Shown: positions 25,552 to 64,000 of the stretch, piece by piece
How the letters are laid out: each line of letters begins with the position of its first letter
Position numbering within the stretch: the first letter of the stretch is position 1
Source: a bacterium
GTDB taxonomy: Bacteria > SM23-81 > DAOVCL01
Direction of reading: 5' to 3'
Assembly (NCBI GenBank): GCA_029932675.1
Contig: JAOZPP010000001.1
Coordinates: forward strand, 44,671-108,670
Length of the DNA stretch: 64,000 nucleotides
The notes under the pieces: model-generated
The model's input: only the letters and a program-made list of their open reading frames with translations
Told to the model about the DNA's origin: nothing
Databases searched by the model: none
Program-made: the position numbers and the translations under genes

Positions 25552-26910
25552 TCAACCGTTAGACCCTTTGACTCCCAGTGATCTGCAAAACTTAGAGAAA
25601 ACCCTCCTGACCTTAGCAGATAGAAAACCTGTTATTGAAGTTAAAAATGGTATTATGTCATCCCAAGCAAAGACAGCCCACTGCTTCTTCCCCAATGTTG
25701 AACGAAGCCAGCCCAGTAAGGAAATCGAGCCCTCTTTTCTATAATCCAAAAATGCGTTAAAGTCGAGAGAAGTCGAAAGCCACTTTATTCCAGTTCTATA
25801 AGAGAGATTGGAGGATACTCTTTTCCCAATTGTGTCGCAGTAAGCAATATAGGCAAGGTTTACTCCACATCTGGTTCCCAACACATCCCAAAGGCCAAAG
25901 CGGGTATTGAATTCAATGAGTTTGAATTTGCCATCCCTTGAATCCAGTTTAAATTCCATACCACCCAACCCATTATACCCTATATCCTTCAGAAATTTGA
26001 TACTAATCCTTTCCAGCTCCTCTTCGTACACAGATTCAACAAAACTCGCACTGCCGAAGTGAATAGGGTTTAAACGCAGCTTTCTACCGGCGAAGTGACC
26101 TAATACCTTGTGAGTTTTAGAGATGTAAAATACAAAATAAAACAAGTCACTATCATCCCCTGGAATAACCTCTGAAATGATTACATTTGGGTCATAGACT
26201 GCAATTCTGCTATAGAAACTTAACAGTTCGCTACTCTTTGAGATGACAATGACTTTTCCCCATCCGCCCAGGATTTTTCGTATAGACTCTCTGTGCCATG
26301 AATCTGACCTCACTGGCTTAATGATACAGGGATAGGATATCTTTGTAGCTATCTCCCTAACTTCACTTAGGGAATTGGGAATGTATGTAACAGGAACTGG
26401 CACATTGAACTCAACGGCTGTTCTATAAAGTGCGTCCTTTGTAGTCAACTTTTCAATTGTGCTATGCTGGGGCCCAGTAAATAAAAAGAAGTCCTCTAAA
26501 ATATTTTCATACTTGGCATAGCATAAAACGGTGTTGTCCCCGGTAGGGAAGAGAACTGGTTTCTCTCCTAAAGTCTTGCTTAGACTAATCAAGTATTCTA
26601 TATGTTCATTTTCATTTGATTCAACAGAGGGACAGATCTTACTTTGACAGTAGCGAGAGTTCATGCCTATTTGCTTTGGATTGGGATCCAAGGCGTATAC
26701 TGGGATACCTTGTCTACCCAGGGACCTAACGATCCCCAGCCCCGAGTAAGACATATAAGTTACCACCGCTGGTGGGTATCGGGAACCACTTTCCCTATAG
26801 ATAGATTTAGGAGTCAACCGCGAAATAGGCTCCAACTCCACTGTGGACAAGCTATTTGCCTTGTCTGGGTAAACTTCTTTTTCTTGCATATCCCATAAGT
26901 ATCTTCCCAT
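25552..26910 (-). CDS. ATP-grasp ligase
   Basis: This 452-residue ATP-grasp enzyme has a pre-ATP-grasp domain (PAVVTYMSYSGLGIVRSLG, about 47-65), the lysine-containing IIKPVRSDSWHRE strand and the C-terminal metal/ATP site GGMEFKLDSRDGKFKLIEFN. Such enzymes ligate a carboxylate to an amine; homologues are frequent in exosortase EPS loci. The ATG at 26910 follows TGAGGT six bases away. The start overlaps the end of the broken methyltransferase by 59 bp, showing that the two genes were once tightly packed in one operon. Confidence 0.87.
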   Translation of the reverse strand: MGRYLWDMQEKEVYPDKANSLSTVELEPISRLTPKSIYRESGSRYPPAVVTYMSYSGLGIVRSLGRQGIPVYALDPNPKQIGMNSRYCQSKICPSVESNENEHIEYLISLSKTLGEKPVLFPTGDNTVLCYAKYENILEDFFLFTGPQHSTIEKLTTKDALYRTAVEFNVPVPVTYIPNSLSEVREIATKISYPCIIKPVRSDSWHRESIRKILGGWGKVIVISKSSELLSFYSRIAVYDPNVIISEVIPGDDSDLFYFVFYISKTHKVLGHFAGRKLRLNPIHFGSASFVESVYEEELERISIKFLKDIGYNGLGGMEFKLDSRDGKFKLIEFNTRFGLWDVLGTRCGVNLAYIAYCDTIGKRVSSNLSYRTGIKWLSTSLDFNAFLDYRKEGSISLLGWLRSTLGKKQWAVFAWDDIIPFLTSITGFLSAKVRRVFSKFCRSLGVKGSNG

Positions 26911-27837
26911 TAAGTAACCTCATTTTCACCCAGAAATAGTCAAACCAGGTTAACGATAATATGACGAGGGATCTTAACAACCGGGGCAGGTTTAATGACC
27001 TACTAACTTCCTCCGAAAAAGCACCAAAGTTGTGAACTTTTTTAATGTCAAACAGATTTTCTATGACGGTAAGCATCTCCTCGCCCGTGCTGTTCTCGAA
27101 TGAAGTATCTAACTCTTGGTTTTCTCCGCTAACACCGTGCAGCTTACTTCTTCTTAGCAAGTACTTGTAATAAGCAGCATTTAACATATTCTTTAAACTC
27201 TTCAGCCTCCTTGAGTAGGACCAGGTTAGCGGGAAACAAGCATTAACAACCCGAATTATTCATGAACTGAAAATGAATTGGCATAAATTTTTCAAGGCCA
27301 ATGATTTGTGTATTTGTTTCGTAGGGACAGACATTTATGTCCGTCCGCTTCCTCGAACTCCCTACAGCAAGAGACCTCAGCGATTTAAGAGGTGCTGTGA
27401 ATTTATGAATAATCCGGGACAATAACTTCGAGGCTCTGACTTACTTTGGTTTTAAAGGTCCCTCCTTTTCCTCCCCAAATTCGCTCAGAAAAAAGGAACC
27501 ATCCGCCCGGTTTTAATGAATGAAAAATCTGCACACAAAGTCTCTCAATTTCCGGAATATGATGTAAAGCATCCCAAGCTGTAACCAGATCATATTTGTT
27601 TGGAGTTAACTCGTATTTATTCAAATCCGCCACAATCCAGTTGATTTTCCCTAGGGGTTTTTGCTTCAGTTGACTATGATATTTTTTAGCTACGTTGATT
27701 TCCCTTTCACTACAATCCACAGCATCGACAATTTTCCCGGCCCATGCCATTTCTAAACTCAGCCACCCTGCACCGCGACCAAGATCAAGCGCTCTATCCC
27801 CGCGGCATCCCCTGGCAAACAGAGTCAAGGTTCTCCG
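26852..27837 (-). pseudogene. Class I SAM methyltransferase split by a miniature element
   Basis: The N-terminal half (about 27837-27419) carries motif I RALDLGRGAGWLSLEMA, then VDAVDCSE and LHHIPEIERL plus LKPGGWFLFSERIW. It stops early at VIVPDYS, where the last four residues and the stop codon come from the inverted repeat of an inserted element. The C-terminal half continues from 27245 to 26852 (ACFPLTWSYSRRLKSL, later EEMLTVIENLFDIKKVHNFG). Removing 27250-27418 plus one copy of the 4-bp duplication joins both halves in the same frame. The N-terminal end is also lost at the junction with the acyl carrier gene. Motif I has R where the family usually has C or S. Confidence 0.78.
27250..27418. 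mobile_element. Miniature inverted-repeat element, copy A (169 bp)
   Basis: The ends are CCCGAATTATTCATGAA and, inverted, TTATGAATAATCCGGG. A 4-bp direct repeat ACAA flanks it (27246-27249 and 27419-27422), as expected of a target-site duplication. It has no coding capacity, so it would need a transposase supplied in trans. It is inserted in the methyltransferase gene. Copy B, about 80% alike by eye in the second half, lies inverted at 29297-29465. Confidence 0.8.
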
Positions 27838-28024
27838 AAATAAGCTCCTCATCCTCAACCTGAATGCCAAATGTCTCCTCGACGAAGGAAACCAATTCGA
27901 GAACTCCAGTTGAATCGATGATCCCCTTTTCCAGAAAGGAATCATTGTTCTTAAGCTTATCTTGGTTGTGTCCAAACGGGAAATTATCAAAAATGAATTT
28001 TCTAATCTGTTCCTCAATGGACAT
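27794..28024 (-). pseudogene. Acyl carrier protein, C-terminally truncated
   Basis: The reading frame of 76 residues is a typical acyl carrier protein: the phosphopantetheine serine lies in GIIDSTGVLELV, followed by SFVEETFGIQVEDEEL. After ENLDSV the frame changes to CQGMPRG and stops, where family members continue with another helix of about 10-15 residues. The ATG at 28024 is preceded by GCAGGAGAAGC. The nucleotides after ENLDSV are shared with the methyltransferase in another frame, so a deletion probably joined the two genes. It may be non-functional. Such carriers are regular members of exosortase EPS loci. Confidence 0.75.
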
Positions 28025-28112
28025 CTCTGCTTCTCCTGCAGAAGGGTTCAACATAAAGAACAGGGATTAAACCGTTCAAGTCGTTTGGCCGTTTAAATAG
28101 TTCACAACCAGC

Positions 28113-28952: not shown

Positions 28953-29925
28953 AACCTATTTCCAATGAAGCCCACATACAATTAGAAACTTTCCCGGCGG
29001 GTAAAACCATCCATAAACCACAGATGACCTCCCTTAACTAAAAACCCCCTGGGGAATGCGTTGAGGTTTCTCTCTAAACTATTTAACTGGGTGAACACAG
29101 ACTTCCGCGGATAAAATCAACACTGCTCGTGGCTTGTTACACTACGCTAAATTTCCTTCCCAGTGCTTATAGCTTGAAGAATGAAGTGGTTCTTATTTCG
29201 TTTCATTCACCTCCCCAGTAGCCAGTGACCCATAAAGGATGACCTGGGAAATATCAAATTTTCTACTTCTCTCAAGATCAAATCTGCAGATTTTATCCCG
29301 GATTATTCACAAATTCACAGCACCTCTCAAATCGCTGAGGCCTCTTGCTGTAGGGACTCCGCCTTAGCGGAGCCCGAGGAAGCGAACAGACTGTCCCTCC
29401 AAGACATAATACCTTAAATTTAAAAGGATTGTGCCATTTCGTTTCCAATTTGTGAACAATTGAGGTTAACGACTTTAAGGCAAAATATTCATAAACCACC
29501 GATGAGCACAAGTTTTCCCAGGCACAATCGCAACCCCCCAAAAAAACATCGTAGTTCGTTGATCGCAGCTCGTTACTTGTGAGGGGCCTCGGAGGAGCTT
29601 ACTATCGAAAACCTTTAACCACTTTAAAATGCCTCTCCCACCAGGGGACGAAGGATTCTCGAACCAGGTATAATCCTCACCCTCTCCCTAGTCCTCCCCC
29701 ATCAAGGGGGAGGAGACCTTCCTGAACGCCCACTCCTGTGAGCGAGGAGGTTCACTAAATTCAATTAAGTTGTCAAAAATCATAAGTGGGGGAGAGTTAG
29801 CCCCTCAAGCCTACCTGGAAAACCTTGCTCAAAAACAAGATCTTGCAAATTTTAGCACAAACAGCTAACTACATAGATGTTAACTCATCGTCTGCTCGCT
29901 TAGAACCTAAGGGGATAAGCAAGAT
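28953..29925. other. Gene-less stretch of 973 bp with repeats
   Basis: No convincing gene. It contains miniature element B (29297-29465), a CGTAG micro-repeat (29549-29580), and a 9-bp perfect hairpin TCCTCCCCC/GGGGGAGGA at 29692-29714. The rest is in-frame stop-rich on both strands. The size and position between cpsD and the deacetylase gene suggest that a gene was lost here, but no protein remnant was recognised. Confidence 0.55.
29297..29465. mobile_element. Miniature inverted-repeat element, copy B
   Basis: It starts CCCGGATTATTCACAAATT and ends AATTTGTGAACAATTGAGG, the same terminal repeats as copy A with a few changes, in inverse orientation. Length is about 169 bp. The shared core includes TACAGCAAGAGGCCTCAGCG read on the minus strand. 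Flanks TTAT and TTAA are only partly alike, suggesting an older insertion. Confidence 0.68.
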
Positions 29926-35733: not shown

Positions 35734-36548
35734 TACTCCTTTAGTCTATTTTGAATAAAACATACTGGAAAAAAATGAAATTGGCAAGGGAAAAAGCCAC
35801 GGAAAATACTTCGGCGGTTTAAACCGTTCAATAATAGGCAAAAAGTAACCACTATGCGGGAATAGAATTGGCTAACCCCAAAGAAACCCCAAGAAAGAAC
35901 TTGGTTCACTACAAGTCCTCCCTATAGCGGCTATCACCCCTCTGGTCTACAATAATCCCCCTCATCCCTTGAGGGGGTCATAACTTCTGTAAACAACCCT
36001 TTGCTTTGGGCATTTCTGAGAAGCTCCAAAAGGTTCTATAAAAGCTGCTCAGGAGCGGATCAGGGCAAAATGGGCATAATAAGATATAAGCAAAATCTGT
36101 GCCAAGGAAGGGGAACAAGTAAGTAATTCGGGGTTTCTCCTTCTATCCCCAAATTCTCCCCCCTTGGAGAGACTAATTTACCCTCCTTTGCCATAGAGTG
36201 TTTTCCTTTTATCTCCGCATTTTGCAAAGGGCTGCAAAGTTTATGCAAATACCTTCAACGAGAAGAGAAATTCCTCTTGATTTTCCCTCCCCCACTGCTT
36301 ATTTTATAACCATCTCTACTACCTCAGTGGAACTGCTTACCTAACCCGGATTGTTCATAAGCACCTCACGGATGGATCTCAAGAGCTGTTCCTACAGCAA
36401 AAATATTAAGAAATTTGGGACTCGATGCTAATTTCTGAATAAATCGGGAAAGGGAAATCCGCAACCGGGCAGGAGCGGTTAGGTAAAAACTTTTAGCGTC
36501 AAGGCTTTCATATAGGGAAACATCTGCTAACCCTTGAGGATATCGATT
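35734..36548. other. Divergent regulatory gap between wza and the kinase operon
   Basis: No gene is supported in this 815-bp stretch. It should contain the promoters of both the EPS locus and the signalling operon. Visible elements are an 8-bp perfect hairpin CCCCCTCA/TGAGGGGG at 35957-35977 and miniature element C at 36345-36448. I found no sigma-54 -24/-12 site with correct spacing. Confidence 0.55.
36345..36448. mobile_element. Miniature inverted-repeat element, copy C (deleted form)
   Basis: The left end CCCGGATTGTTCATAA and the right end TTCTGAATAAATCGGG match the termini of copies A and B. The interior is shortened to about 104 bp in total, while AGCACCTC and a TACAGC-like piece are retained. 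No target duplication is visible. It lies just upstream of the histidine kinase gene. Confidence 0.55.
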
Positions 36549-63177: not shown

Positions 63178-63943
63178 TCAGGCGACAAGGTTGATCTTTG
63201 AAAGAACCTTCATGAGATGTTTGCGGCCATATGAGCTCTTCAGTGCCTCCTGAATGTAAAGCATGTTCTCTTTGTTTACCTCTGCTTTCACCACCTCCAT
63301 CATCTGTGGTGTGCGAGCGTTCTGGAGGTGATAAGCTTCCTTAGGGGAGAGGGAACCCCGCAGTAACTGTAGTCTTCTATACTCCAGGAACAAGAAGGTG
63401 ATCAAGACAATATCCACCCAATGCTCAGAGGCCTGGAAGTCCTCAAAGCTGTAGTCGGTGAAGTGCAGATGGCTCTTTAGCTCTTTGAAATAGAGTTCTA
63501 TCTCCCACCGTAGCTCGTAGAGCTCAACGTTTTCAGGGACACTGAGCTCAGAGAGCATTTCCACTACTAGATCAACTTGGCTACGGTATTTTAGGCCGTA
63601 CCTTTTGGCATAGGCTTTGGTATAATAGCTACGCCGGGGCAAGGGAATGCGGGTGCCGCTCTCGGTGATGAGCAGTCCCATGACCCAAAGATGGGTTTGA
63701 CTTCCCTTACCCCTTTTACCCCTGTCCTTATACTTGATAGTGTTACCATTGCGTTTACGAGACTTCCATCTTCTCTGGGTCTTCTTGGTAGTGGTATCAA
63801 AGATAACCAAACCATTGAGCCGGGAAAGATAACCTCTGTTGCTGGAAGAATAGACCAAAGAAGCTCCAGTAAACCTGGAGGGTATCAAATCCTGGATTAT
63901 TGAATGCCCTATTCACATTGGCTTTGTTGCGTTGTTCGGTCAT
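63178..63943 (-). pseudogene. IS4-type DDE transposase, frameshifted
   Basis: The main frame (63888-63178) contains the first catalytic aspartate in LVIFDTTTKK and the IS4 signature YELRWEIELYFKELK, an exact Y(2)R(3)E(6)K pattern. The probable N-terminus, MTEQRNKANVNRAFNNPGF from 63943, is in a different frame that stops after about 48 codons. A frameshift or small deletion between 63800 and 63890 therefore breaks the gene. It lies 28 bp from the TSUP gene end and marks an insertion-sequence remnant at the window edge. Confidence 0.72.
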
Positions 63944-64000
63944 GGGGTTGCTGAAAAAGTGGGTTTTTGTAAAACGAAGGCTTTAGGTGGATTCCCCGGA

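Follow-up and report, generated by a model that had tools for sequence, protein, structure and literature searches.

A probable IS1380-type MITE in a bacterial exopolysaccharide locus, inserted in a methyltransferase pseudogene with a probable second lesion

Our analysis indicated that the element at positions 27250-27418 of the window (the whole 64,000-nucleotide stretch of DNA analysed here) is very probably an IS1380-type MITE lying in a methyltransferase pseudogene that was damaged twice, by insertion of the MITE and by a deletion fusion that removed the N-terminus of the gene. The MITE is 169 bp long and non-coding, and the ORF list of the window contains no transposase ORF within it. It is bounded by a 17-bp left terminal inverted repeat, CCCGAATTATTCATGAA (27250-27266, plus strand), and by a right one, CCCGGATTATTCATAAA (27402-27418, minus strand, read as reverse complement), of which 15 of 17 positions pair. 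The tetranucleotide ACAA stands directly on both sides (27246-27249 and 27419-27422), a 4-bp target duplication following the rule of the family. A sequence-only reading had proposed such an element with inverted ends between two copies of ACAA, and its coordinates proved exact. The features are those of a MITE, namely short length (below about 600 bp), terminal inverted repeats, lack of a transposase gene, and many scattered copies in the genome with short target duplications alongside. Furthermore, the element folds strongly (RNA fold z = -5.2), and its central part holds a REP-like palindrome, GTAGGGACAGACATTTATGTCCGTCC. The palindrome GTAGGGACAGACATAAATGTCTGTCC inside the MITE (27320-27370) was also found alone elsewhere in the genome (loci L018, L022, L028 and L030), a pattern that could reflect capture of REP-like palindromes by the MITE, or their spread together with it. 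Palindromes of the REP/REPIN type are a comparison system for it: the resemblance is that a GGGACAGACATAAATGTCTGTCCC-type palindrome lies inside the window element and turns up by itself at other places in the genome, and the difference is that the window element is bounded by transposon ends and a target duplication.

The MITE interrupts a reading frame on the minus strand. As had been claimed, the stop of the upstream fragment lies inside the element, its minus-strand product ending in ...VPDYS*; element and duplication together (169 + 4 bp) are not a multiple of three, so that the insertion brings both an in-frame stop and a frameshift. The middle part of the methyltransferase (27419-27804, minus strand) has a class I SAM fold with motif I LDLGRGAGW (Methyltransf_25, E 1.5e-15), and the C-terminal part (26852-27249, minus strand), which contributes about 132 codons to the joined frame, matched a profile of homologues. 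When the element and one ACAA were removed, the codons GAA GTT ATT GTT AAT GCT were indeed joined, and the frame stayed open for about 340 codons without any other stop. The profile was built from the only three full-length methyltransferase relatives found in a wider search (G085, G058 and G226), uninterrupted proteins of about 300 aa each. It scored the joined product at 112 bits and the first fragment alone at 101 bits, whilst the C-terminal fragment alone reached 12.9 bits (E 0.0028), colinear with the C-terminus of the relatives, against 3.7 bits for the best of 500 shuffles of the same fragment. No Pfam family was assigned to the C-terminal fragment, and it was detected by the profile only and not by phmmer against the single homologues. 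The proposal that the downstream half is a methyltransferase C-terminus is thus borne out, with modest homology, and the 111-codon ORF there is not a gene of its own. Both fragments are parts of one methyltransferase gene. The joined protein had no relative in the genome contig collection, and searches of plasmids and phages with it returned the general methyltransferase core only, or nothing.

The joined product does not span the whole family. It lacks about 72 N-terminal residues that all three homologues have, and its match begins at profile position 72-74. In their place stands the upstream acyl carrier protein gene (27794-28054, minus strand), read in a different frame, which has lost its C-terminal stretch (PF00550 positions 14-55 of 67) and is fused to the methyltransferase at about 27804-27818. 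The carrier protein of the window ends in ...ENLDSVCQGMPRG*. Its relatives in other genomes share 31-63% identity with it, and those that could be read extend past ENLDSV with a further stretch, typically ..I..FVE.K; matches of the window protein to the best NCBIfam carrier models likewise break off about 11-13 positions early. Frame 27403-28017, which had been taken as the N-terminal half of the methyltransferase, does contain a methyltransferase fragment, but an incomplete one, the part upstream of about 27804 being merely an out-of-frame overlap with the carrier gene. Because the methyltransferase lacks its N-terminus and the carrier is truncated at the same place, there must be a second lesion, either a deletion fusion or an assembly join. 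The simplest reading is a deletion near 27804-27818, which would have brought the end of the carrier gene up against the middle of the methyltransferase gene. That the fusion is instead an assembly artefact, with the MITE insertion as the sole true lesion, seems unlikely. The assembly consists of 116 contigs and is rich in repeats, and two of them, C6 and C103, break off inside copies of the element; however, inspection of the fusion point showed no genome-repeat copy, and the join falls within coding sequence on both sides, an argument that is not decisive.

The MITE belongs to an abundant family in its own genome, which we surveyed by searches and by reading individual sequence stretches. 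The element gave 34 BLAST matches, the closest copies being 97-100% identical over the aligned part, which upholds the earlier suggestion of recent transposition activity. Ends of the family, of type CCCGRATTATTCA, numbered 66-97 (68 at no more than one mismatch and 97 at no more than two), and the reversed-pattern control gave 0; within the window, six matches were found at up to three mismatches, compared with 0.84 expected. These numbers are far above those that chance would give. The second window copy (29297-29465) is intergenic and is flanked by TTAT and TTAA (3 of 4 bases matching), and the third member (36345-36448) is short (104 bp) and decayed, sharing its ends with the family. From an automatic list of 52 candidate pairs we picked 23 complete copies by hand. 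A perfect 4-bp direct repeat was present at nine of the 23, where shuffled flanks averaged 1.37 and reached at most 7 over 2000 re-pairings; the unfiltered 52 pairs likewise yielded nine, against 1.28. Perfect repeats of 2, 3, 5, 6 or 8 bp were found at none of the 23 complete copies. The flanks of 80 distinct ends followed the consensus T-T-A-A by majority (60, 57, 60 and 72%), with TTAA, TTAT, TTTA and TAAA as the commonest targets. Since a 4-bp duplication is the rule of the family, ACAA on either side of 27250-27418 represents its ordinary duplication, although it departs from the TTAA consensus. Only the window copy, one of the 23 complete copies, interrupts a long ORF, its removal giving 340 codons; the next-longest interrupted span was 143 codons, and one other complete copy lies at the extreme edge of a long ORF. 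Insertion of the MITE into an already dispensable gene would fit these observations but is not proved by them.

4-bp duplications and CC..GG ends are common to IS1380 and the eukaryotic piggyBac (PMC10045372), and piggyBac uses TTAA and variants of it as target duplication (PMC10813416). The window element shows the same combination of a 4-bp duplication, a TTAA-like target and CC..GG ends. Furthermore, its ends are common to elements of other genomes that bear a PF13701 transposase: a complete 1629-bp IS1380 element (G032, locus L158) has perfect ends CCCGGATATTTCATAA, the duplication TTAG and a PF13701 transposase inside, and in G034 (locus L159) the left end, CCCGGATTATTCACGAA, precedes the first start codon of the PF13701 frame by about 50 bp. 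In the PF13701 loci retrieved, the inverted-repeat pattern was matched three times at no more than two mismatches; the reversed pattern gave 0 matches there, and a set of 20 unrelated loci gave 0 as well. A mobilising transposase in the same genome would be expected, without being strictly required for a MITE; PF13701 transposases numbered 0 both in this genome and in three relatives of the phylum. The assignment is therefore made by ends and target and not by a resident enzyme. On these grounds the element is best viewed as an IS1380-type (piggyBac-like) MITE, which IS1380 transposase would have mobilised, and the driver may have been lost, be unassembled or be foreign.

Comparison with known systems points the same way. 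The element resembles the IS1380 family (DDE_Tnp_1_4, PF13701) in its near-identical CCCG..CGGG ends, 4-bp duplication and TTAA-like targets, and differs in being only 169 bp long and without a transposase, none having been found in the genome. With the piggyBac superfamily, the eukaryotic relatives of IS1380, it shares the 4-bp TTAA-like duplication and the CC..GG ends; unlike piggyBac, it is bacterial and its targets are degenerate (TTAT, TAAA, TTTA, ACAA). The MITEs of Anabaena sp. 90 are likewise short, with inverted ends, in a genome without a matching IS, mostly intergenic and in some cases making pseudogenes (132 of 147 intergenic and 15 in pseudogenes); those MITEs are unassigned to any IS, whereas the ends here match IS1380 of other genomes (PMC3542288). 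It is distinctly unlikely that the element belongs to another DDE family, such as IS4, IS5 or similar, and acquired IS1380-like ends by convergence. PF01609 transposase remnants do occur in the genome, one of them at the end of the window, but no MITE-type end was seen by eye beside either remnant, both of which are cut by contig ends; moreover, the TTAA-like 4-bp duplication with CCC..GGG ends fits IS1380, and a complete IS1380 element elsewhere bears such ends. The remnant of the window (63178-64000) is IS4-like and cut by the contig end, and a related fragment starts contig C88 (locus L080).

The ends of the family were also found in other genomes. The genus mate G001 has 53 ends, and two other members of the phylum have 3 and 12. 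Outside this phylum, ends CCCGRATTATTCAYRAA are amplified to 10-56 occurrences in five genomes (loci L188-L200): at no more than one mismatch, the 17-base end occurred 56 times in G147, 22 in G021, 21 in G038, 10 in G058 and 10 in G061, and all reversed-pattern controls in these genomes were 0. The elements that carry them there are short, about 160-270 bp, and several have 4-bp TTAA-like duplications. Of the end pairs that we read in those genomes and in G003, five were flanked by perfect 4-bp duplications (ATAA, TTAA, TTAA, CTGG and CTAG). No PF13701 match at all was obtained in G038. This class of terminal inverted repeat is thus widespread. The 37-base end of the MITE gave no match in collections of genome contigs and viral contigs. 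A stretch of G001 (C71, 602-2108) was considered as a 1.5-kb autonomous element and rejected: it contains a 226-aa ORF, not transposase-like by eye, and a 0.2-kb MITE.

The pseudogene lies in an exopolysaccharide (EPS) locus of the XrtA/exosortase type, as the earlier reading had supposed, in which a TIGR03006 deacetylase (375.7 bits, cut-off 276.2) and a TIGR01007 EPS tyrosine kinase (140.4 bits, cut-off 108.05) score above their cut-offs. The next gene of the operon encodes an ATP-grasp protein (25552-26910, minus strand). Its listed start at 26910 gives a 59-bp overlap with the methyltransferase frame, and the gene may start later. G002 and G003 both have the kinase, an epimerase and the deacetylase, followed by a glycosyltransferase and not by the cassette of carrier, methyltransferase and ATP-grasp genes; the names epimerase and glycosyltransferase were read from the sequences. 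No relative examined carries this cassette or showed an uninterrupted site with a single ACAA, and matches of G001 to the locus were short and fell on locus repeats. Between the EPS kinase and the deacetylase (28953-29925), the window has about 1 kb where G002 and G003 have the epimerase-like gene, and this stretch contains, besides the MITE copy at 29297-29465, a different multi-copy repeat (about 29658-29860).

It had been claimed that excision of the element restores the frame. The frame is regained on paper, but it is a frame that was already truncated, and the gene as such is not recovered, given the roughly 72 missing N-terminal residues and the carrier gene truncated at the fusion. We accordingly regard it as very unlikely that the MITE hit a methyltransferase gene which until then had been intact, and that precise excision would return a working gene. 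The open span of 340 codons with no other stop and the 97-100% identity of the nearest copies over the aligned part speak for such a course of events; against it stand the stretch absent here and present in all three homologues, the truncated carrier gene found in its place, and motif I of the methyltransferase, which reads GRG in the window and GCG in the three homologues. A reversible switch, in which precise excision at the 4-bp target by an IS1380-type (piggyBac-like) transposase and a functional fused or re-initiated carrier/methyltransferase would make EPS methylation phase-vary, is more improbable still, with hardly any credence given to it. A further reading takes the element for a palindromic insert like the Rickettsia RPE, conserved and coding or in frame, which the protein tolerates. 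Its palindromic structure and strong fold speak for this reading, but the in-frame stop after PDYS refutes it; moreover, length plus duplication is not a multiple of three, and 22 of 23 complete copies leave no long ORF interrupted. Next to no credence can be given to it.

We therefore return to the doubly damaged pseudogene. The element with its ends, duplication and family, the frame, the homology of both fragments, the missing N-terminus and the truncated carrier protein are shown by the sequences; the IS1380 enzyme, a deletion in place of an assembly join, and the order of the events are inferred. A transposase of the IS1380 family would have mobilised the non-autonomous MITE in trans at a 4-bp TTAA-like target. 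Its insertion into the methyltransferase ORF introduced the stop and shifted the frame. The second lesion would be a deletion that took away the last part of the upstream acyl carrier gene together with the first 72 or so codons of the methyltransferase. The locus is therefore a recent pseudogene, in which precise excision could yield the already truncated frame only. Such loss of a gene is ordinary, and the element responsible is of a known kind.

For the annotation, the result means one pseudogene instead of two genes, plus a damaged acyl carrier gene. It also places an abundant repeat, from a phylum that has been poorly sampled, among transposons of the IS1380/piggyBac type. Of more use, as a by-product, is the cross-phylum spread of the ends: these are amplified in several unrelated genomes, some of which have a resident IS1380 transposase and some of which do not, so that cross-mobilisation of such MITEs can be put to the test.
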